This document shows positions 32,332 to 43,704 of a stretch of DNA of 64,000 bases, piece by piece. The position numbers were made by a program, and so were the translations under genes. The DNA is from Sediminivirga luteola. GTDB lineage: Bacteria > Actinomycetota > Actinomycetes > Actinomycetales > Brevibacteriaceae. The notes below the pieces were generated by a model, which was given only the letters and a program-made list of their open reading frames with translations, searched no databases and was not told where the DNA came from. The stretch is from NCBI RefSeq assembly GCF_014639315.1, contig NZ_BMFY01000012.1, positions 1-64,000 on the forward strand. The letters are read 5' to 3'. Numbering within the stretch: position 1 is the stretch's first letter; each line of letters opens with the position of its first letter.

Positions 32332-33495
32332 TCAGGCGCTCAGATGCGCGATCAGGCGCTCGATGAACTCCTCGCCAGCGCGGATCTGCTCCAGTTCGAT
32401 GAACTCGTCCGGGGTGTGGGCCTGCGCGATGTCACCGGGGCCGAGGACGATGGTCTCGATGCCTGCCTCTGCGAAGAGTCCCGCCTCGGTGCCGAAGGTC
32501 ACCTTCTGAGCCGGGGCATCGGCGCCGAGCCGGCGGGCCAGCTGCAGCACCTGCGCGTCCTCCGGCGTGTCCAGGCCGGGCGCCTTCGCGATGACGCGCA
32601 ACGAGGTTCCCGCGGCCGGGTTCTCCGTTTTCATGGCCGCATCGATGACGGCCAGCTCGGACGCGATTCCCGCGATGACCTGGTCCGGATCGTCGCCGGC
32701 GACGGTGCGGAACTCCAGCTCGATCCGGGTGTGCGCCGGCACGATATTGGCCGCGGTGCCGCCGGAGACGACGTTGACGCTGGCCGTGGAGTGCGGGATG
32801 GGGTAGCCCTCGTCGAAGGGGCCGTTGGCCCGCCAGTGATCGGCGAGGCCGCGCATGTACGTGATAATCCCGGCGGCATGCTCGATGGTGTTCACCCCGT
32901 GCGTGGTGAGCGAGGAGTGCGCCGCGACCCCGCGGAACTCCAGTTCGATGATGTTCATCGACTTGTGCGCGCGGATGGGGCGCATGCTGGTGGGCTCGCC
33001 GACGAATGCCACCCGCGGATGCAGGCCCTGATCCGCGATGCCCTTGACCAGGCCGGGGGCGCCGACGCAGCCGATCTCTTCGTCGTAGCTGAAGGCCAGG
33101 TGCACCGGCTGGGAGAGCCTGGCCGCCGCCAGCTGGGGGACGTAGTGCATGACGATGCCGCAGAACGCTTTCATGTCGGCGCTGCCGCGGCCGTAGAGCC
33201 GGCCGTCGCGCACGTCGCCGGTGAACGGCTCGGAACTCCAGTCCTGGCCGTCGACGGGAACGACATCCGTGTGACCGGAGAGCATCACACCGCCGGCGCG
33301 GGTGCCGTCGGCCGCCGGGATCGTCGCCAGCAGGTTCGCCTTGCGGCCGTCCTCACTGGGCAGGATACGAGGTTCGATGCCGTGACTGCGCAGGTCCGCG
33401 GCGATCACCTCGATGAGTTCGAGGTTGGAGTCGCGGCTGGTGGTGTCCAGACCGATCAGGCGGTTGATCCAGGGAAGCGAGGCAGGGAGTTCCAT
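32332..33495 (-). CDS. ArgE-like M20 family deacylase
   Basis: Zinc peptidase-fold hydrolase of 387 residues, in the acetylornithine deacetylase ArgE subfamily. Metal and catalytic motifs are SGHTDVVPVDG (His ligand and Asp), YGRGSADMKAF (bridging Asp), SYDEEIGCVGAPG (Glu-Glu) and a later HTPDEFIEL. The ATG at 33495 begins family homology (LPWINRLIGLDTTS). It is the last reverse gene after the PucR regulator (121-bp gap). Its place suggests it may deacylate or decarbamoylate the amino acid released by the hydantoinase-like operon. A classic ornithine-biosynthetic role is less likely because no other arg gene is near. Confidence 0.82.
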   Translation of the reverse strand: MELPASLPWINRLIGLDTTSRDSNLELIEVIAADLRSHGIEPRILPSEDGRKANLLATIPAADGTRAGGVMLSGHTDVVPVDGQDWSSEPFTGDVRDGRLYGRGSADMKAFCGIVMHYVPQLAAARLSQPVHLAFSYDEEIGCVGAPGLVKGIADQGLHPRVAFVGEPTSMRPIRAHKSMNIIELEFRGVAAHSSLTTHGVNTIEHAAGIITYMRGLADHWRANGPFDEGYPIPHSTASVNVVSGGTAANIVPAHTRIELEFRTVAGDDPDQVIAGIASELAVIDAAMKTENPAAGTSLRVIAKAPGLDTPEDAQVLQLARRLGADAPAQKVTFGTEAGLFAEAGIETIVLGPGDIAQAHTPDEFIELEQIRAGEEFIERLIAHLSA

Positions 33496-33616
33496 GCCTC
33501 GTGACGCTAGCACGAGGCCGGGACACGCGATGGTGGCGGCTGCCTCCCGAGGTGGGTGGTACCCGCTGCCGAAGCCCCGATGCGGTGCCGCACGGGTCGG
33601 GTGTTCGCGGCTGCAG

Positions 33617-35155
33617 CTAGCTCGGTCTGTGCTCTGTGGCGCGCAAAGCCAGGTGAAGAGCCAGCCGCTCGTCTCGGCTGGCAAGATCCACGCCGAGGAC
33701 CTCCCGGATACGGTCGATGCGCATCCGCACCGTGTTCCGGTGCGTTCCTAGCACCTTTGCCGCCTGCGCCGTGGACAGCGAACTGTCCAGGTACGCCAGG
33801 AGCGTCCTGCGGTACTCGGCACCCAGATCGTCCAGTGGCTCGAGAAGACCCATCGCCCGCGGCAGGAATGGCGCCGACTCGGTCCACGACAACAGCAATC
33901 TGGTCGCACCCAGACCGTCGGCCCGCACGAACCGGCGCCCCGCGGCTTTTGTGGCCGCTAGCTGAGCGGCGTCACGCGCCTCTGCCAGTGCCTGCCGCAG
34001 ATGATCCACGCCCTCACCCGCCCGGCCGACGCCCATGCTGATCTCGATACCGCGCGCCGTCTTCCGGTACACGGCTCGCAGGTCACGCACGACCTCCTGG
34101 AGTCGCGCGGCCGACGGCGCGGAGGAAAACTGCACCCAGCCGGCCCAGCCACCGTCCCTGGGAAGCAGCACAGTCGTGGCGCGAACGATCTGGAGCGCGT
34201 CTTCCAGCACATCACCGAGGCCGGGGACGGGATCAGCCGGAGCCAGGAAGAATGCCAGATGCCATCCCGTGAGTGGAAGGCCCAGATCCGCAGCGCGCTG
34301 TTCCAGGGAACTTGCCGGCGCAGTCCCGGCGAATGCCTGATCCAGCACGGCGTTCCGCGCCGAACCAAGGACCTGCCCCGCCAGCTGGAGCTCGGCGTAC
34401 CAGCGGGCGGCGTACACCGATCCCAGCGCGACCACGCGCCCCGCCTGACGAACCGCCTCCGCCGGAGAGTCCGCCGGCAGCCGCGCGCCGAGCAGATAGC
34501 GCTGTTTCCCGACCCGGAAGGGCTGGCGTACGTACAGGTACTCGTCCTTCGCCGTCAGCGCCGCACCGGGATCAAAGCGCGCGAGTGCTTCCTGCGGCAC
34601 GGTGACCACGCCCTCGGTATGCGCCAGCAACGGCCCGTTCTCCACGCCCAGCCACACATCGGCGCCGATCAGCGCCGAGAACTGGTCGAGCACCGGCCTC
34701 ATGCTCTCCGGGCGCTGCTCTCCCTGCGCCGCCTGCAAAGCGGTGAGGATATCCGCGTCACGCAGCCTGGGCGCCTGCAGATGGACGCGTGCTTGCGCGG
34801 CGAATTCCAGCAGATCCTGCTGACTACCCTCCAGCATCACCATGGCAACGCCGAGACGTCGCGCCAGTGCCGCGGCGCTTCCTCCTGCCTGCGCTTCATG
34901 CGCGGAGCAGACCATGACTCCGGCGGCACCGCTGTCCCGGACACGGCGCACCAGCGCGTCCCACCACCAATGCTGATCGGTGGTACCGAAGACGACCAGC
35001 AGATCCCCGCCTTCCAGGTCTTCGCGCCCGCCGGCGATCACGAGCCTGACACGAGAGACCGTCACCCGGGCCGGCGCGGCGGAGCCTCCGGCACCCAGCA
35101 CCTGAGCGCGTTCCCGCCAGAAGGGCGGGTGCAGCAATTCCGCCAGCGTCGTCAT
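33617..35155 (-). CDS. PucR/CdaR-family transcriptional regulator
   Basis: Regulator of 512 residues. An N-terminal PucR-type domain lies at about 1-130 (VRLVIAGGREDLEGGDLLVV), a central GGDEF-like region at about 290-410 contains ISMGVGRAGEGVDHLRQALAEA, and a C-terminal HTH_30 domain at about 445-505 contains YLDSSLSTAQAAKVLGTHRN. Characterised PucR proteins control purine or allantoin catabolism. The ATG at 35155 overlaps the stop of the DUF917-3 gene (ATGA), so it is co-translated with the hydantoinase-type operon it presumably regulates. Confidence 0.87.
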   Translation of the reverse strand: MTTLAELLHPPFWRERAQVLGAGGSAAPARVTVSRVRLVIAGGREDLEGGDLLVVFGTTDQHWWWDALVRRVRDSGAAGVMVCSAHEAQAGGSAAALARRLGVAMVMLEGSQQDLLEFAAQARVHLQAPRLRDADILTALQAAQGEQRPESMRPVLDQFSALIGADVWLGVENGPLLAHTEGVVTVPQEALARFDPGAALTAKDEYLYVRQPFRVGKQRYLLGARLPADSPAEAVRQAGRVVALGSVYAARWYAELQLAGQVLGSARNAVLDQAFAGTAPASSLEQRAADLGLPLTGWHLAFFLAPADPVPGLGDVLEDALQIVRATTVLLPRDGGWAGWVQFSSAPSAARLQEVVRDLRAVYRKTARGIEISMGVGRAGEGVDHLRQALAEARDAAQLAATKAAGRRFVRADGLGATRLLLSWTESAPFLPRAMGLLEPLDDLGAEYRRTLLAYLDSSLSTAQAAKVLGTHRNTVRMRIDRIREVLGVDLASRDERLALHLALRATEHRPS

Positions 35156-36270
35156 GGCAGCACCGCCTCGAAGTCCAGGCCGAACGACGCGGGCCCGGTC
35201 CGTTCCACATATGCGTCCCGCCGACGGGGCAAGGAAGGCGGCAGCGCGATGACCACCACATCGGCGGCCAGGCGTATCTGGTCCGCTCGCAGCGGCAGGA
35301 ACGTCCGGGCGTCCAGCACCCCGATGACAGCGGGAGTCGTGCATGCCATGCTGCCGTCGATCGCGACGGCGAGGAACTCGTTCTGCATGTCGACGCGAAG
35401 CAGCGGCCCCGAGGCTGACACCGTGAACCAGCCAGTGCGTCCTCCGTCGACTCCCGGTCGATGGATGGCACTCACGTGGCCGTCGCCGAGCACCCGCCCG
35501 CCTTCGGCATCCAGGTAGGGCTGCAGCCCGCTGAGCGACTGCGCCGCCGCGAGAACCCTGCCCCAGCGGGAAGCCCTGAGCAGAACGTGCGGGACCACCA
35601 CATCGGCGACCTCGGACAGCGTCCCCACCGAGAAACTCACGACGACCCAGCCTCCGGTAGCGCGGACCACGGCACGGACGATCTCCTCGAGATACCGCCC
35701 GTCCGCAGCGCTTCCTGCCTCAGCGGTCGTGTCAGGCACCGCCGCTGCGTGAGTCGCCCCGCCGACGACCATCGTGCGCCCATGCGCGTCGACCAGGACG
35801 GCCGGAAGCATGGAGACGCCGGAGTAGGCCGGGCTGAACTGATCAAGCCACGGCAGCGCACGGCCGCTCAAGTCCGCATCCAGAACAGGCAGACTCAACT
35901 GAGCGGCCGCCGCCACGGCCGCCAGGCCGTTGAAACCGCCTACTTCCAAGGGAACCACGGCCTGCGCATCCACGCCGAGAGACGCGAGCCGTTCCACTGC
36001 AGCCGGGAACTCAGCCCCGCTGGGAAGCTGCTCCGACAGCGGACCGTCCGCAGCGCCGGCGATGCCTAACGCCACCGCCTGCCCATGCGCCGTCGCGGTC
36101 AGCGGATCCATCACGTCCAGCCTTCGCTCGCCGAGGTATCGCCGGGCAAGCCATCGCCCGATTCCAGCATCGCCGCCACCCCCGCAACCGAAAAGGCGCG
36201 CGCCGATCGTCAGCATCTCGATGTCGTGGAGGCCTCGGATCCACTGGTCCGAGCTGTTCCCGCCCGTCAC
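35152..36270 (-). CDS. DUF917 family protein, copy 3 (divergent)
   Basis: A 372-residue member of the DUF917 family, which more recent domain naming links to S-methyl-thiohydantoin desulfurase. The Gly-rich N-terminal loop reads FGCGGGGDAGIG where the two siblings have GTGGGGDP, and the middle block VVPLEVGGFNGL replaces their MEIGGLNS or IEAGGVNS. This is the most divergent copy and may have a different partner or activity. It overlaps the upstream HyuA-2 stop and the downstream regulator start by four bases each. Assignment to the family is firm; the reaction is inferred. Confidence 0.82.
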   Translation of the reverse strand: MTGGNSSDQWIRGLHDIEMLTIGARLFGCGGGGDAGIGRWLARRYLGERRLDVMDPLTATAHGQAVALGIAGAADGPLSEQLPSGAEFPAAVERLASLGVDAQAVVPLEVGGFNGLAAVAAAAQLSLPVLDADLSGRALPWLDQFSPAYSGVSMLPAVLVDAHGRTMVVGGATHAAAVPDTTAEAGSAADGRYLEEIVRAVVRATGGWVVVSFSVGTLSEVADVVVPHVLLRASRWGRVLAAAQSLSGLQPYLDAEGGRVLGDGHVSAIHRPGVDGGRTGWFTVSASGPLLRVDMQNEFLAVAIDGSMACTTPAVIGVLDARTFLPLRADQIRLAADVVVIALPPSLPRRRDAYVERTGPASFGLDFEAVLP

Positions 36271-37841
36271 GGGATTGCCCCTTCCGGCGCCCGGGTGCGA
36301 GCGATACGCAGATCGCCCACCGCTTTGACCCGGATTCTGGTGGCTTCTCCGGGCAGATACGGGATCGGGATGTCGTCCTCGTCGATGATGGCCACGCTGG
36401 AAGGCGCAGCACCGGCGGCAACCGCACGGTCCACCGCCTCCTGCCGTGCTTCGTCCATCGTCTGCCTGCGCCTGCCGGGCGGGATGGTGAAGATCCTGTC
36501 GACCTCGCCGGAAACCTGCGCGATCGCGGCCCCGACTGCATTGGCGACCGCGTAGTGCTCCGGACGGACGACCGGCCCTACCCCCTCAAGCCGCTCCGGG
36601 AGCAGTGCCGATCCGCCGCCCACGCCCACCACCGGGAACTCGCCGGGCGCGGTCCGCATCGAGTTCACCGCATCGGCGTGGCGGGATGCCATGTCCCGCA
36701 ACGCGTCATGCACCAGCTGCTCGTCTAGATGGCGTACCAGGGATCGGTCGCCGATGTCAGCCCTCCCTGCCGCCACGGCCACATCAGTGGCGGTGAGGAC
36801 GTCGCCGCCGAACACCAGTCCGCGGCGGGAAAGGCGGTATCCGACGGAACCCGGCCCCACCCGCACCGGCGGACCCGGGCGTACCAGGCTGCCGCCGCCG
36901 ATGGCGATGGAAATGACGTCAGGCATGCGGAAGTTCGTGGGAACGCCAGCGACTTCCACCGCGCTGGTCGCCTCACGAGGAAAGCCAGCACGCAGCATTC
37001 CGACATCGCTGGTCGTGCCACCGAAATCGACCACTGCGCAATCCCTCACTCCCGAGAGCATCGCGGCGCCACGCATCGAGTTCGCCGGGCCGGAGGCGAA
37101 CGTCGAGACCGGGTATTCCTGGACCGTTTCGACATCCATGACAGTGCCGTCGTTCTGCGACAGGAACAGCGGCGCGGTGATGCCGCAGGCCCGCACGACG
37201 CCATGCAACGCCGCAGCGACCTCCTCCGCGAGGAGGCGCAGTGAGGCGTTGATGATGGTGGCGTTCTCTCGTTCCAACAGGCCGATCCGCCCGATCCGGT
37301 AGGACAGCGACACAGGGACATCGGGGAGCACCTGACCAAGCACATCTGCGGCCTCCTCTTCGAACTCGGCGTTCACAGGGGAGAACACCGAACTCACGGC
37401 GATGCTCTGCACCCCCGCTTGACCGAGTCGCTCGCCGATTCTCCGTAGCCCGGCCACATCGAGCCGCGAGATCCGCCGACCGGTGAACTCGTGTCCGCCG
37501 GCCAGCAGATGCCCGCTGGCGTGCAGGGCGTCCCGCAGATGCTGCGGCCACTCGGTGAACGGCGGCAGCGCAGCCGTCGCGGGAAGACACAACCGGATGG
37601 CCGCGGTGCGAGCCAGCCGGTCGGCCTCGACCAGGGCGTTGAGGAAATGCGTGGTGCCGACCATGACGGCATCGACGTCCGCAGTCAGGAACGGACGCTG
37701 ACGCTGCAGATCGTCCAGTGCCCCGCGGATCCCTGTCGAGACATCAGCGGTGGTGTGACGCTTGGCCACCGCGACGACCGCTGACCCGTCCATGAGGACG
37801 GCGTCGGTATGAGTGCCCCCGACGTCGATTCCTATCCGCAT
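36267..37841 (-). CDS. Hydantoinase/oxoprolinase A-type subunit, copy 2
   Basis: HyuA-like protein of 524 residues with the ASKHA-type nucleotide fold. The N-terminal phosphate loop is GIDVGGTHTDAVLMDG, the second is VVDFGGTTSDVGML near residue 270, and MVGTTHFLNALVEADRL follows the first domain. Relatives hydrolyse hydantoins or oxoproline with ATP, normally with a HyuB partner. No HyuB is present; the gene lies between two DUF917 genes (21-bp gap upstream, 4-base overlap downstream). It resembles HyuA copy 1 throughout, pointing to duplication of a HyuA-DUF917 pair. Confidence 0.88.
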   Translation of the reverse strand: MRIGIDVGGTHTDAVLMDGSAVVAVAKRHTTADVSTGIRGALDDLQRQRPFLTADVDAVMVGTTHFLNALVEADRLARTAAIRLCLPATAALPPFTEWPQHLRDALHASGHLLAGGHEFTGRRISRLDVAGLRRIGERLGQAGVQSIAVSSVFSPVNAEFEEEAADVLGQVLPDVPVSLSYRIGRIGLLERENATIINASLRLLAEEVAAALHGVVRACGITAPLFLSQNDGTVMDVETVQEYPVSTFASGPANSMRGAAMLSGVRDCAVVDFGGTTSDVGMLRAGFPREATSAVEVAGVPTNFRMPDVISIAIGGGSLVRPGPPVRVGPGSVGYRLSRRGLVFGGDVLTATDVAVAAGRADIGDRSLVRHLDEQLVHDALRDMASRHADAVNSMRTAPGEFPVVGVGGGSALLPERLEGVGPVVRPEHYAVANAVGAAIAQVSGEVDRIFTIPPGRRRQTMDEARQEAVDRAVAAGAAPSSVAIIDEDDIPIPYLPGEATRIRVKAVGDLRIARTRAPEGAIP

Positions 37842-37862
37842 ATCTCCACAGTGTGCCTTATC

Positions 37863-38927
37863 TCACACCCTGACCGGATCGGTGTCATAGCCGAAGTACC
37901 GCGGGCCAACCAGCGCGATCCCTTCCTCGGTGTGCCACCGCGCATCTGCCGGCGAGGCGATCACCGCGATCCGGGCCCCGTACCGCAGGTTCTCTGTGGT
38001 GATGGGCTCTCCGGTCTCGATGTCCAGCGCCATGATGAGATCCGGAGTGGTGACCTCCGTGGCCCCGTCGATCTCCGCGATCAGGATCTCATTCTGGATG
38101 TAAAGCCTCATGACCGTGCCCTCACGTCCACCGAAACCTGCGATCGTGACGATGCCCCGGGCGAAGCCCGTCTCGGTCTTCCGCTCGAGGTCCGTGATCT
38201 TGCCCGCGAAGAGCTTTCGTCCGCCGACTGCGGCCACGACGGCCTGCACCGGGTCCCTGTGTTCCTTCTGCGCGGCCTGGATCGCCGCTCCGATGTCGAT
38301 GCATGCCGAGAGGGTGCCCGGCACGTAGGACTTCCTTGCCTCCTCGCCGTCCATGGCATACAGCGAGATGATCGCGGAGCATCCCATGTCGATGGTGGCC
38401 GAACGCGCCAGCGTCTCCGCCCATCGGTTGCTGATCGTGTCCAGCACGCCCCGGTTTCCCTTCTCATCCATGATGGTCATCGGGGTGGCGCGGATGCCGT
38501 AGAGCGAGGGGATCACCATCTGGAGCTCGGGGAAGGCCCGCCCCATGAAATCGCCGTCCACGAGCGGGAGACCCAGCTGAGCGGCCGCGACGAACGGGAT
38601 GGTCGAGTTGACGCCGCCGGCCTCGATGCAGGCGATATGCGTGGGCTTCTTACCCAGGTAACCTGCCAGGGTCTCCACGGCGGCGGAGACCTGATCGATA
38701 GTCGGCACCTTCTCCACCATGACGGTGGGCGCGCCCATCATAGCCACGGGAAGCACGACTGAATCGTCATCAAGGTCGTCCACTGCGGCGAGACTGATGG
38801 GACCGTGCTCGCGAATCGTCGCTTCCGCCAGAAGCGCACCGATGTAGGGGTCTCCGCCTCCTCCCGTCCCCAGCACCGCGGCCCCGCGCGCCAGCGCGGG
38901 AATGTCCTCGAGCACGACAGTGCGCAT
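37863..38927 (-). CDS. DUF917 family protein, copy 2
   Basis: DUF917 protein of 354 residues. The N-terminal loop is GTGGGGDPYIGALL, then IEAGGVNSTIPF near residue 100 and a C-terminal beta-rich region with YIQNEILIAEIDG and TPDLIMALDIETGEPI. The ATG at 38927 follows the stop of HyuA copy 1 after two bases, with AAAGGGG upstream inside that gene. Members next to HyuA genes have been linked to removal of the sulfur substituent from S-methyl-thiohydantoins and to hydantoin metabolism. That function is assumed here by family and context only. Confidence 0.87.
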   Translation of the reverse strand: MRTVVLEDIPALARGAAVLGTGGGGDPYIGALLAEATIREHGPISLAAVDDLDDDSVVLPVAMMGAPTVMVEKVPTIDQVSAAVETLAGYLGKKPTHIACIEAGGVNSTIPFVAAAQLGLPLVDGDFMGRAFPELQMVIPSLYGIRATPMTIMDEKGNRGVLDTISNRWAETLARSATIDMGCSAIISLYAMDGEEARKSYVPGTLSACIDIGAAIQAAQKEHRDPVQAVVAAVGGRKLFAGKITDLERKTETGFARGIVTIAGFGGREGTVMRLYIQNEILIAEIDGATEVTTPDLIMALDIETGEPITTENLRYGARIAVIASPADARWHTEEGIALVGPRYFGYDTDPVRV

Positions 38928-38929
38928 GG

Positions 38930-40471
38930 TCACACCCCTTTCAGATCGCCGACGGCCTTGCATCGGATCCGGGTCGCGTTGCCCGGCAGATATGGCAGGG
39001 GGACCTCGTCGAAGTCCACGATCCGCACGGTGTCCCTGTCCGCGCCGGCCTCCACCGCCCGGTCCACGGCGGCCTCACGGGCTTCGGCCACAACGTCGTC
39101 GCGGGTTCCCGGCGCCACCGTGAACACCTGATCGATCTCGCCCCCGATCTGGGCGATCGCGGCGCCGATGGCGTTCGCCACGGCGAAGTTGTCCGGACGG
39201 ACCATCTCGCCGAGCCCGGGAAGCCGGTCCGGCAGCAGAATCGATCCGCCGCCGACCGCCACCACCGGAAGCGGATCGGATGAAGTGCGCATCCGGTCCA
39301 CCCCCTCTGCGACATCGTCAGCGATGCGTTGCACCGCAGCCGTGACAAAGTCCTTGTCCAGGTGAGCGACCCTGGACGGATCGCCCATCTCCGCCATTCC
39401 CGCAGCCACGGCGATGTCACTGGCGGTGAGCGTGGCGCCGCCGAAGACGAGTGCCTCGGTGGTGAGCCTGTAACCCACAGACCGGGGCCCCACCGCGGCT
39501 TCGGCGGAGACGAGGCTGCCGCCGCCGATGCCGATGGAGTAGACATCCGGCATGCGGAAGTTGGTGCGCACGCCGCCGATCTCCACCTCCGTGTTGGCCT
39601 CGCGCGGGAACTTGTTGACCAGGATGCCGATGTCCGAGGTGGTTCCGCCGACGTCCACCACGGCGCAGTCTTCCAGGCCCGACAGCACAGCGGCACCGCG
39701 CATCGAATTGGTCGGACCGGAGGAGAACGTGCTGATGGGGTACTGCCGTGCGTAATCCGCGCCCATCAGCGTGCCGTCGTTCTGGGACAGGAAGAGCGGA
39801 GCGGTGATGCCGTAGTCCGCAAGGGAACGCTCGAAGCCGCCCACGACGGTCTGGGCCATGGCGGACAGCGCCGCGTTGGCGATCGCAGCGTTCTCCCTTC
39901 CCAGCAGCCCGGTGCGGCCGATCCTGCTGGAAAGCGAGATCGACACCGCAGGGCCGAGCTCCTCGGCGAGGATCTCCGCCGCACGCACCTCGAATTCGTC
40001 GTTGACCGGGGAGAACACAGAGGAAACCGCCACGGCTTCCACGCCATTGGTCCTCATGTCCGCGGCGATGCGTTTGATCTCATCGGGATCCAGTGGGGAG
40101 ATCTCCCGGCCGTCGAATTCGTGACCGCCGTGGGCAAGATAGCTGCGGCCCCCGGTGGCCTCCACGAGACGCTGGGGCCAGTCCACCATCGGCGGCAGCG
40201 AAGCCGTAGCCGGCAGACCGAGTCGCAGAGCTGCGACCTTCACGAGCCGACGTGCTTCGACGAAGGCGTTGACGAAGTGGGTGGTGCCGATCATCACCGC
40301 CTCGATGTCGCCGGGGTCGAAGTCCCGTTCGGCCTTCAGCCCGTCAAGCGAATTGACGATCCCGGTAGAGATGTCGTCGGTGGTAGGGGCTTTGGTTCCC
40401 GCGAGGACGGTGTCGCCCTCCATCAGGACGGAGTCGGTGTTGGTCCCACCGACGTCGATTCCGATGCGCAC
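38930..40471 (-). CDS. Hydantoinase/oxoprolinase A-type subunit, copy 1
   Basis: HyuA-like ATP-binding protein of 513 residues, with GIDVGGTNTDSVLMEG at the N-terminus, MIGTTHFVNAFVEARRL at about 80, and VVDVGGTTSDIGILV near 260. It is the sibling of copy 2 downstream, with the same block order and length. It lies 35 bp after DUF917 copy 1 and 2 bases before DUF917 copy 2, so each HyuA is followed by a DUF917 gene. Likely acts in ATP-dependent opening of a hydantoin-type ring, in the cytosol. Confidence 0.89.
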   Translation of the reverse strand: MRIGIDVGGTNTDSVLMEGDTVLAGTKAPTTDDISTGIVNSLDGLKAERDFDPGDIEAVMIGTTHFVNAFVEARRLVKVAALRLGLPATASLPPMVDWPQRLVEATGGRSYLAHGGHEFDGREISPLDPDEIKRIAADMRTNGVEAVAVSSVFSPVNDEFEVRAAEILAEELGPAVSISLSSRIGRTGLLGRENAAIANAALSAMAQTVVGGFERSLADYGITAPLFLSQNDGTLMGADYARQYPISTFSSGPTNSMRGAAVLSGLEDCAVVDVGGTTSDIGILVNKFPREANTEVEIGGVRTNFRMPDVYSIGIGGGSLVSAEAAVGPRSVGYRLTTEALVFGGATLTASDIAVAAGMAEMGDPSRVAHLDKDFVTAAVQRIADDVAEGVDRMRTSSDPLPVVAVGGGSILLPDRLPGLGEMVRPDNFAVANAIGAAIAQIGGEIDQVFTVAPGTRDDVVAEAREAAVDRAVEAGADRDTVRIVDFDEVPLPYLPGNATRIRCKAVGDLKGV

Positions 40472-40506
40472 TAGGTAGTCCTTTCCATATCAGGGCTTCG
40501 AGGGTG

Positions 40507-41643
40507 TCAGGGCGCCGGCGCGGCCTGTTTCGGGGCAGCGAGCTGTTCCAGCGGAGTCCAGTCGTGGTCCAGCCCAAAGCAGCGGGGCCCCCAGACCTTC
40601 AACGCCTCGGGTGTGCGCATGATCTCCGGCGTAGAGATCCCCAGCACGGTCACGCGCTGGCCGTACCGGGTGGATTCCGTCGTGATCGCCTCACCCGAGT
40701 CAGAATCCAGCACGCAGATGAGATCCGGGACGACCCCGACGACTTCGCTATGACCAGCCGGATCGACCATCCGCGCGATGATGTTCTCGTTGCGGAAGTC
40801 GATCACCAGTTCGTCCTCGGCACCGAAGACGGCGATCTTCAACGTGCCTGAGCTGAAGCCGTCCACCACCTGCCGTTGCACGTCGGTGACCTTCCCGGTG
40901 GCGATCACGTGCGCGTAGCCGTAGATGGAGTCCTGCACCACGGAGGCGATCGCGGCGATCGGATCGGAGTGTGCCTGGTTGGCCTCGCGCACCGCGGCGC
41001 CGAACGACTGGGCAAGACCCAGCGTGCCGGCCACAGCCGTGCGTTTCACATCCGCTCCGCTCATCGGATACTCCGCGATGTAGGCCGCCCCGCCCATGCG
41101 GATCGTCACGGCACGAGCGAAAGATTCCATCCGGACGTTGTCGTCACCGGTCTCGACGACGACGTGATCCCCATTGGCGTCCGAGACGACCAGCGGTGAG
41201 CCGGGCACCCCGTAAACCCCGAAGGTCTCCATCTGAAGCTCCGGGAAGGCCCGCCCCATCCCGTCGCCGTCGACCACGGGGATGCCGGCCTGTGCGGCGG
41301 CCAGGAGCGGGATCATCGAGTTCAGCCCGCCTATCTCCATCGGGATGATGAAATCGGCCGTCTTCCCGATGCGCGTCTCCAATGCACGCAGGGAGTTCAG
41401 CGCTTCCTCACCAGCAGGGAGCTTCTCCACCACGACGGTCGGGGCTCCCATCATGGCGGAGGCGATCACGCACGCCTCGTCCGGCACTTCGTCCGGATGG
41501 ACCACGGTGACCGTCAATCCGTCGCGGATGGCTTTTTGCACCAGCAGCCGGCCGATGAGCGGGTCGCCTCCGCCTCCGGTGCCGAGGATGCCGGCGCCGA
41601 TGGCGATGTCGTCGATGTCCTCGACAGTCAGGATGCGGGTCAT
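40507..41643 (-). CDS. DUF917 family protein, copy 1
   Basis: DUF917 protein of 378 residues, beginning MTRILTVEDIDDIAIG with GILGTGGGGDPLIGRLL close behind, then IPMEIGGLNSMIPLL. The C-terminal half has NENIIARMVDPAG and VPDLICVLDSDSGEAI, matching copy 2 at corresponding places. The start overlaps the permease stop by four bases. It is the first of three family members in the operon, and copy 1 and 2 are clearly closer to each other than to copy 3. Confidence 0.87.
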   Translation of the reverse strand: MTRILTVEDIDDIAIGAGILGTGGGGDPLIGRLLVQKAIRDGLTVTVVHPDEVPDEACVIASAMMGAPTVVVEKLPAGEEALNSLRALETRIGKTADFIIPMEIGGLNSMIPLLAAAQAGIPVVDGDGMGRAFPELQMETFGVYGVPGSPLVVSDANGDHVVVETGDDNVRMESFARAVTIRMGGAAYIAEYPMSGADVKRTAVAGTLGLAQSFGAAVREANQAHSDPIAAIASVVQDSIYGYAHVIATGKVTDVQRQVVDGFSSGTLKIAVFGAEDELVIDFRNENIIARMVDPAGHSEVVGVVPDLICVLDSDSGEAITTESTRYGQRVTVLGISTPEIMRTPEALKVWGPRCFGLDHDWTPLEQLAAPKQAAPAP

Positions 41644-42968
41644 GCCGCGGCCTCCGTCTCGGTGTTCGACTTCAGCAGAGCGCTGTCCTTACCGAACCGG
41701 TTAAGCAGGAAGAGCACGATACCGGCCGAGACCATGCCGTCGATCACCGGCATGCTGGTGATGAGAACGGGCGTGTAGGTGGTGATCAGAGCCACGACGG
41801 AGCCCACGATCCACGCGGCAAGGGCGAAGGGACGCAGGACCGGCACCGAGTCCAGCAGGGAGGTGCCGTAGCGCGATCGCTTGCCGAAGTAGTAGTCGGC
41901 GATGATCACGCCGGCTACCGGCGGGATGAACACGCCCAGCACGTTCAGGAACGCGGGGAAGTTCTGGTAGATGCCCATCAGCGCCAGGACGATACCCACG
42001 ACGCCGGCGATGGCGGTCAATTGCCACTTCTGCAGTCTGGTGAAGATCACCGCCAGTCCCAGAGCGGCGGAGTAGAGGTTGTTGTCGTTGGAGGACCACT
42101 GAGCGAGCATCAGCAAGACGAGAGCGAGCACGCCCCAGCCCAGGCCGATCATGATGTTGACGATGTCCGAGGTCCCGGTCTCCATCGCCATCAGCGTTCC
42201 CGTGATGAGGACCAGCGGGGTGACGACGCCGAAGGCCAGTACGGCTCCGCCGATCGTGTGTGCCGGCGATTTGGCGTACCGTGAGACGTCCGGCGCGATG
42301 ACCGCGCCGACGATGAAGGAGCTCACGGTGAGGGAGATGCCCACACCGACGCTGATCGGTTCGCCATTGCCTTCCATCGCTAGGATCTCGTCCCAGGTGT
42401 TCGCCTCCAGGACCCGCCACGTGGATGCGATGATGAGGACCGCCATCAGCGGCACCGCGAGCTTGGAGAGGATGTCCAGCGCCTTGTAGCCGATCACGGC
42501 GGTGGAGATCATGAGCACGCCGCCGATGATGATGAACAGCCACGAACCGACGGAGCTTCCGGTCAGCGTCGTCCATGCGGTCGCCGCGGTGTCTCCGAAA
42601 AGCCCCAGCTGAACAGCGAACCAGCCGTAACACCCGAGCGCCATGATGAAGGCGATGAGGACGATGGCCGAACGCCCGAAGGCGAACCGTGCCGCCATGG
42701 CAGTGGAGAGCCGAAGACGCGCGCCGATGATGCCCGTCAAAGAGGTGACGACGGTGAGGATGGCTCCGCCAACGAAAGCGGCGACGAATGCCTCGCGAAT
42801 GTTCAAGCCGTCGCCGATGGTGCCACCGGTCAGCAGCAGTCCCAGGCTGATGCCGACCCCGGACCACACGAGGCCCATGGAGAGCCAGGAGTGCGACTTC
42901 TCCTCCGGGACGGTCTCCCGGCTGTAATCCTTGAATGCCCTATTCGCTTTGCTGATTGCCGTTGACAT
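41640..42968 (-). CDS. NCS1-family permease (cytosine permease-like)
   Basis: Membrane carrier of 442 residues with about twelve hydrophobic helices, of the nucleobase:cation symporter-1 family to which CodB, allantoin and hydantoin (Mhp1) transporters belong. It has the N-terminal PEEKSHSWLSMGLVWSGVG motif before helix 1 and YGWFAVQLGLFGDT in helix 3. Cytosine-permease features include ARFAFGRSAIVL and IAPDVSRYAKSP. It follows the racemase by 13 bp and overlaps DUF917 copy 1, so it is the probable importer of the heterocycle degraded by this operon. Confidence 0.88.
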   Translation of the reverse strand: MSTAISKANRAFKDYSRETVPEEKSHSWLSMGLVWSGVGISLGLLLTGGTIGDGLNIREAFVAAFVGGAILTVVTSLTGIIGARLRLSTAMAARFAFGRSAIVLIAFIMALGCYGWFAVQLGLFGDTAATAWTTLTGSSVGSWLFIIIGGVLMISTAVIGYKALDILSKLAVPLMAVLIIASTWRVLEANTWDEILAMEGNGEPISVGVGISLTVSSFIVGAVIAPDVSRYAKSPAHTIGGAVLAFGVVTPLVLITGTLMAMETGTSDIVNIMIGLGWGVLALVLLMLAQWSSNDNNLYSAALGLAVIFTRLQKWQLTAIAGVVGIVLALMGIYQNFPAFLNVLGVFIPPVAGVIIADYYFGKRSRYGTSLLDSVPVLRPFALAAWIVGSVVALITTYTPVLITSMPVIDGMVSAGIVLFLLNRFGKDSALLKSNTETEAAA

Positions 42969-42981
42969 GTGAGCGTTCCCC

Positions 42982-43704
42982 TCAGATTCTCTCTTTGATG
43001 CGGGGCGGATAGTAGGTGGCTCGACTGGGGACGGCCTTGAGCCTGACGGCCTGTTCCAATGCGGTGATGGCCGAGCCGGTGGGATCCATGACGGGGATCT
43101 GCCCGTAGTCGGCGCTCAGCCGCGCCGAGACCGCGTGGGCCACATCGAGCATGCCGGTGCAGCCGAGTACGAAGCTCTGTGCTGCCCCGCTGTCCAGGGC
43201 CGCCCGCGCCTGAGCCTCGAGCCGGTCGACCAGAACGTCGTGCTGGCCGACGGAGAGCACGGGCATGTCCACCACGCGGATATCGGTGACCCGCTCGCTC
43301 AGGCCGTAGCCGCCGATGAGGCGGTGCAGCATGGAGAGCACATCGGGCAGCACCGTGAGGATACCGATCTTGTCCGCAGTGCCCAGCGCCGCGTGGATGG
43401 CTGGTTCGAAACCCCCGAAGACCGGGCCATCGAAGATCTCCCGGGCCGCATGCACACCGGGCTCGGCAAAACAGGACACGAAAATGCCGTCTATCCCGTC
43501 ATCCTTGGCCTGCTGGACGAGTTCGAGGATTCCGGGAACGCTGAGCGCCTCGTCGTAGCTGTTCTCGATGGACTGCGGTCCGCGTTCGATCTGGACCACG
43601 TCCACCTGCGTGCCCACGGCGCACCAGGCCTGGGCTTCCTCCTGAACACCGGCCAGCAGGGACGCGTCGATGATCGGAACGATGATCCGTAGCTTGATTG
43701 CCAT
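42982..43704 (-). CDS. Asp/Glu/hydantoin racemase family protein
   Basis: First gene of the hydantoinase-type operon, 240 residues from the ATG at 43704 (AAGGGAG upstream). It carries the two-cysteine catalytic pair of the Asp/Glu racemase superfamily at Cys78 (FVSCFAEPG) and Cys182 (VLGCTGMLD), one in each pseudo-symmetric half, as in hydantoin racemase HyuE. It should interconvert the two stereoisomers of a 5-substituted hydantoin or related compound so the ring hydrolases can use both. A maleate isomerase-like role is possible but less likely here. Confidence 0.85.
   Translation of the reverse strand: MAIKLRIIVPIIDASLLAGVQEEAQAWCAVGTQVDVVQIERGPQSIENSYDEALSVPGILELVQQAKDDGIDGIFVSCFAEPGVHAAREIFDGPVFGGFEPAIHAALGTADKIGILTVLPDVLSMLHRLIGGYGLSERVTDIRVVDMPVLSVGQHDVLVDRLEAQARAALDSGAAQSFVLGCTGMLDVAHAVSARLSADYGQIPVMDPTGSAITALEQAVRLKAVPSRATYYPPRIKERI

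Follow-up and report, generated by a model that had tools for sequence, protein, structure and literature searches.

A minus-strand operon of Sediminivirga luteola (assembly GCF_014639315.1, contig NZ_BMFY01000012.1), at positions 32332-43704 of the 64,000-nucleotide stretch analysed here (the window), encodes two HyuA proteins and three proteins of the S-Me-THD family, formerly DUF917. HyuA-like genes are routinely annotated as hydantoinase or oxoprolinase and a need for HyuB is assumed, yet a clade found in three or more phyla seems to rely on a partner unrelated to HyuB. We consider it probable that the operon core is a two-component hydrolase in which a short HyuA activates and DUF917 replaces HyuB and hydrolyses. 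That short HyuA and its coupled DUF917 form a distinct class of adenosine triphosphate (ATP)-dependent cyclic-amide hydrolase, separate from HyuA-HyuB, in which DUF917 cleaves an O-phospho-imidate made by HyuA with the S-methyl-thiohydantoin chemistry of its HyuA-free relatives, is a real possibility, though one we would not yet call probable. An earlier note on this DNA had suggested that DUF917 stands in for HyuB. The substitution itself appears well supported by the genomics and the predicted arrangement described below; the physical complex, the phosphorylation, the order of steps and the substrate we infer.

The earlier note had left room for a HyuB gene elsewhere in the genome. A six-frame search of the whole 3.86-Mb, 99.2%-complete assembly gave zero matches to HyuB (Hydantoinase_B, PF02538), and the same search was positive in 122/246 genomes of the phylum Actinomycetota. 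HyuB was likewise not found in other genomes with HyuA-DUF917, among them G237 and Clavibacter G287. The three Hydantoinase_A copies of S. luteola, one of them on contig 11 (order NCS1-DUF917-HyuA) and the others in the window, each adjoin DUF917. The fifth DUF917 of the genome, on contig 1, has no HyuA adjoining. Its operon (L090, ~142.8-150.5 kb) encodes PucR, an Asp/Glu racemase, an OPT transporter, DUF917, DUF1177, AroM and an M29-like peptidase, a gene set resembling that of the cyclodipeptide-oxidase clusters (PMC11055893).

Scanning named genomes with HyuA-1 yielded 80 loci; Actinomycetota, Chloroflexota and Proteobacteria are among the lineages represented. DUF917 adjoins HyuA in 78 of them. 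Both exceptions lie on metagenome contigs; in one (L074), HyuA starts 430 bases from the contig end with no DUF917 alongside, and the other (L036) is weighed below. HyuB was present in a single locus (L037), where it adjoins additional HyuA matches of its own. The usual actinobacterial order is NCS1-HyuA-DUF917-DUF917-(sometimes another gene)-DUF917-PucR, with PucR following the last DUF917 in most loci, and the alphaproteobacterial order is HyuA-DUF917-DUF917. Parts of oligopeptide-type ABC transporters recur in these neighbourhoods.

The association was also apparent in genomes that had not been chosen through HyuA. Sixteen of the 246 Actinomycetota genomes, a phylum sample not seeded with HyuA, carry DUF917. 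HyuB was absent from all ten genomes that combine DUF917 with only a weak-scoring, short-type HyuA, versus 122 of the 236 others with HyuB (p = 0.002, indicative only, as the ten HyuB-free genomes are partly related to each other). In five further DUF917 genomes (L100-L104) the two systems share a cluster or lie close together, with a long HyuA near each full-length HyuB and a short HyuA with each DUF917. In a comparison of five relatives, every HyuB listed lies apart from short HyuA, and adjoins long HyuA wherever coordinates are comparable. At L100 (4438-18304), two HyuA-HyuB pairs flank NCS1-DUF917-short HyuA-DUF917, so that the systems stand side by side. In a second sample not seeded with HyuA, comprising 349 Pseudomonadota genomes, DUF917 fell into two score classes; short HyuA adjoins 10/10 full-length loci of the high (coupled) class versus 0/11 of the low class (Fisher p = 3e-6). 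One coupled-class DUF917 (L122, 5147-5782), truncated to ~212 amino acids and with no HyuA nearby, is possibly a decaying remnant.

The window HyuAs belong to a distinct short clade. Both phosphate-binding motifs are invariant or nearly so in the 99 short HyuAs that we compared with long HyuAs (DVGGTNTD and DVGGTTSD in HyuA-1). PGPACYG (GxxPGP), the adenosine motif of long HyuAs, described as such in CapA (PMC8453981), is replaced in the short clade by a clade-specific segment (TTEALVFGG in HyuA-1, ending (A/G)LVFGG in HyuA-1 and HyuA-2). Short HyuAs also carry clade-specific QNDGT and TNFRMPD motifs, are ~160 residues shorter and lack the long C terminus. HyuA matches without HyuB or DUF917 in three genomes (G058, G118, G227) were set aside as low-scoring relatives outside this clade. 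HyuA relatives in genomes devoid of both HyuB and DUF917 include those at L139 (1453-3444) and L140 (535-2700); the one at L139 comes after a RACo-type ASKHA protein, which suggests a further HyuA-like branch with another partner.

DUF917 divides into a HyuA-coupled and a HyuA-free class. HyuA-free proteins score above cut-off against two NCBIfam models, thiohydantoin desulfurase and S-methyl-thiohydantoin desulfurase (NF058529, NF058532), with positive controls at 593 bits (L128) and 539 bits (L135), and the named desulfurases, whose pathway is ergothioneine breakdown, lie in loci without HyuA. The window DUF917s, which HyuA adjoins, reach 29-109 bits against these equivalog models, below the cut-offs of 440-450. 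The thiohydantoin substrate entertained in the earlier note is weakened by these scores and by the HyuA-free context of the named enzymes. A GGGG loop, D124, R130, R175, N279 and E280 are common to the coupled class and the desulfurases (residues of DUF917-2, counted from its 38927 ATG). E72, N107 and D126 are additional to the coupled class, which shows no variation at E102. The tree of this sample places three HyuA-free proteins (L125-L127) within the coupled clade, and the division by gene context therefore does not follow descent perfectly.

Within the coupled class, DUF917-1 is closest to the second (d2) and DUF917-2 to the first (d1) downstream DUF917 of actinobacterial operons. DUF917-3 is closest to the third (d3), at tree distances of 2.2 and more; it keeps the shared core, has lost D296 and G317 and has evolved much faster than the other two. 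The catalytic partners are probably DUF917-1 and DUF917-2, and DUF917-3 a divergent accessory. Counterparts of DUF917-3 stay beside PucR in most actinobacterial loci, and some connection with regulation is conceivable.

In some loci HyuA and DUF917 share one frame with a single stop between them. We modelled such read-through chains with AlphaFold as a structure-prediction device, with no claim that cells make them. The earlier note had called for structure prediction of the pair, and both chains modelled appear to place HyuA on DUF917. The L030 chain (HyuA first, 108-row alignment) gave a predicted local distance difference test (pLDDT) of 91.6 and a predicted template modelling score (pTM) of 0.87, its disordered linker having pLDDT <50; by our estimate, a pTM of ~0.6 is expected if the halves had no fixed mutual placement. 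The window DUF917-2/HyuA-2 chain, in reversed order and with a linker of ~8 residues, gave 0.74. These models lend moderate backing to a HyuA-DUF917 contact. Fold searches matched the HyuA half of the L030 model to CapA and to subunits of acetone carboxylase (Ac) and acetophenone carboxylase (Apc) at Z 24-29, and the DUF917 half to 2o3i at Z 41; ASKHA activators (2-hydroxyacyl-CoA dehydratase activator, diol dehydratase reactivase) were also listed. No structural match to HyuB came up for DUF917 in the fold search, an outcome that does not show the two folds to be different.

For caprolactamase and oxoprolinase, it has been proposed that the A subunit activates the lactim oxygen and that the B subunit carries out the hydrolysis, which in caprolactamase takes place at a metal site (PMC8453981). 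By analogy, the short HyuA, an ASKHA ATPase, would turn a ring amide into an O-phospho-imidate, and DUF917, in the place of HyuB, would hydrolyse the activated ring. Both the S-methyl thioimidate and the O-phospho-imidate have an N=C-X group in which X can leave. In desulfurase substrates an N=C carbon of the same kind already bears a leaving group, so HyuA would not be needed there; it would supply activation where the substrate has none, with DUF917 acting on activated cyclic imidates. DUF917 as hydrolase and HyuA as activator is, in our view, the economical reading. The racemase, NCS1 permease and M20 deacylase of the operon point to a chiral substrate with a ring resembling a nucleobase or a hydantoin, which would yield an N-acyl or N-carbamoyl amino acid on opening. 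The whole pathway would take up a hydantoin-type cyclic amide or ureide, epimerise it, open its ring in an ATP-dependent step and deacylate the product.

Several observations weigh against a HyuA-DUF917 hydrolase. At L036 (1922-4102) a short HyuA is followed directly by a racemase on an 8.7-kb contig without DUF917, a possible exception to the pairing. The DUF917 matches of the 246 Actinomycetota and 349 Pseudomonadota genomes included no convincing natural HyuA-DUF917 fusion. The pTM of the window chain is above baseline and not decisive. The changed adenosine motif leaves ATP use by short HyuA unproven. HyuA-free DUF917 enzymes evidently act without HyuA, which might therefore serve a separate step. 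As to fusions, long open frames in G237, G239 and G136 were examined as candidates and rejected, having resolved into separate genes; fungal proteins joining HyuA and DUF917 domains may exist, which we treat only as a lead.

In one rival account the proteins are pathway neighbours only, the DUF917s acting as stand-alone hydrolases or desulfurases of intermediates and HyuA performing a separate ATP-dependent step of that pathway without contact. Such an arrangement would accommodate the named desulfurases in the HyuA-free class, the two or three DUF917s per single HyuA and the moderate confidence of the window-order chain. We nevertheless think it unlikely: pairing is near all-or-none in three phyla despite varying gene order and transporters, the short HyuA has lost HyuB, the L030 chain was placed with high pTM, and caprolactamase activity is reduced or lost when either subunit is mutated (PMC8453981). 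Another reading is that HyuA does not phosphorylate the substrate but uses ATP to activate or reactivate DUF917, in the way that other ASKHA ATPases serve radical or corrinoid enzymes; we find this quite improbable. ASKHA activators do appear among the structural matches, and the adenosine-site motif is unlike that of substrate-phosphorylating HyuAs, but the closest matches in both sequence and structure are the substrate-activating CapA, Apc and Ac subunits, and we know of no labile cofactor for the S-Me-THD families. A conventional HyuA-HyuB hydantoinase with its HyuB overlooked or encoded elsewhere, however common HyuB is in the phylum, is refuted for this assembly, an assembly gap aside, by the absence of any HyuB match, the pairing of relatives' HyuB with long HyuA and the lack of HyuB in G237 and G287, and we give it hardly any credence.

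All nine genes reported in the earlier note were recovered by Pfam domain matches in the same place, strand and order: racemase, NCS1, DUF917-1, HyuA-1, DUF917-2, HyuA-2, DUF917-3, PucR and M20 (Table 1). Each of the three DUF917s has both S-Me-THD domains (E 1e-28 to 1e-68); each of the two HyuAs has Hydant_A_N plus Hydantoinase_A. The tight spacing described there, overlaps or at most 35 base pairs (bp) through the regulator, agrees with the measured gaps: 13 bp for racemase/NCS1, a 4-bp overlap for NCS1/DUF917-1, 35 bp for DUF917-1/HyuA-1, 2 bp for HyuA-1/DUF917-2, 21 bp for DUF917-2/HyuA-2, and 4-bp overlaps for both HyuA-2/DUF917-3 and DUF917-3/PucR. An alternative ATG for DUF917-2 lies upstream at 38963. 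Because no gap exceeds 35 bp, the core genes, racemase through PucR, are very probably transcribed together. The M20 gene starts ~121 bp after PucR. A promoter and terminator scan found no more sites than in shuffled sequence.

Table 1. Genes of the operon, listed in the direction of transcription.
Feature	Position	Strand	Domain evidence
Asp/Glu/hydantoin racemase family protein, 240 amino acids	42982..43704	-	PF01177, E 1.8e-35
NCS1-type permease, cytosine-permease-like, 442 amino acids	41640..42968	-	PF02133, E 5e-29; closest NCBIfam model cytosine permease, below cut-off
DUF917-1 (S-Me-THD fold), HyuA-coupled class, proposed hydrolytic subunit	40507..41643	-	PF06032/PF20906
HyuA-1, short type, 513 amino acids, GTG start, proposed ATP-dependent activating subunit	38930..40471	-	PF05378/PF01968
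DUF917-2, HyuA-coupled class, proposed hydrolytic subunit	37863..38927	-	PF06032/PF20906
HyuA-2, short type, 524 amino acids	36267..37841	-	Pfam Hydant_A_N and Hydantoinase_A
DUF917-3, fast-evolving, GTG start, counterparts usually adjoin PucR	35152..36270	-	both S-Me-THD Pfam domains
PucR/CdaR-type regulator	33617..35155	-	PF13556, PF17853
M20 deacylase, ArgE-like, 387 amino acids	32332..33495	-	PF01546/PF07687; NCBIfam NF005710 above cut-off

HyuA-2 is not a recent copy of HyuA-1, judging by the tree, and belongs to a different sub-lineage: it falls among Specibacter and Clavibacter homologues, and HyuA-1 falls with Quadrisphaera. A locus from the same family (L112) encodes a HyuA 72.7% identical to HyuA-2, followed by a DUF917-1-like protein (52%), DUF917-3 (50.6%, adjoining PucR) and PucR (48%). 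Because HyuA-2 groups apart from HyuA-1 and the L112 operon carries a HyuA-2-like protein, DUF917s and PucR, the window operon looks like a merger of two modules and not a tandem duplication. The earlier note had taken duplicated pairs to form a multi-subunit enzyme or to handle successive steps. That idea stays conjectural. In Actinomycetota a single HyuA ordinarily comes with two or three DUF917s; the three DUF917s are thus usual, and the second HyuA of a different sub-lineage is the unusual part here.

The HyuA-DUF917 module looks like a largely undescribed enzyme class that recurs in several phyla. A search of the open literature, in which DUF917 came up in four papers, found no description of DUF917 as a HyuB replacement or HyuA partner. 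The proposal offers a concrete function hypothesis for the large HyuA-coupled DUF917 class and connects it through simple chemistry to two named DUF917 enzymes. If it is true, HyuA would be a module that opens unactivated amides to a 'desulfurase' fold, and with this pair evolution would have solved the ATP-dependent hydrolysis of lactams or ureides a second time.

Compared with known systems, the window HyuAs share with HyuA-HyuB, 5-oxoprolinase and CapA-CapB the ASKHA fold, both domains and both phosphate-binding motifs, and the operon has the racemase, permease and deacylase neighbours typical of hydantoin pathways. It differs in having DUF917 as partner and no HyuB, in the length of HyuA (~513 versus 670-720 residues) and in the exchange of the adenosine motif for clade-specific sequence. 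With the two desulfurases the window DUF917s share both Pfam domains, the GGGG loop and the five further core residues; they differ in model scores, in the coupled-class residues (E72, E102, N107, D126) and in having HyuA adjoining. Acetone and acetophenone carboxylases have an ATP-binding subunit of HyuA-like fold, but their chemistry is carboxylation, and the window system lacks a HyuB-like catalytic subunit. Finally, in the portion of PMC11055893 consulted, non-CDPS cyclodipeptide-oxidase clusters likewise bring together DUF917 and hydantoin-racemase-like genes, and DUF917 is proposed there to open hydantoin-like rings in the role of a hydantoinase; these clusters include AroM, which the window operon lacks, and that portion describes no partnership with HyuA.

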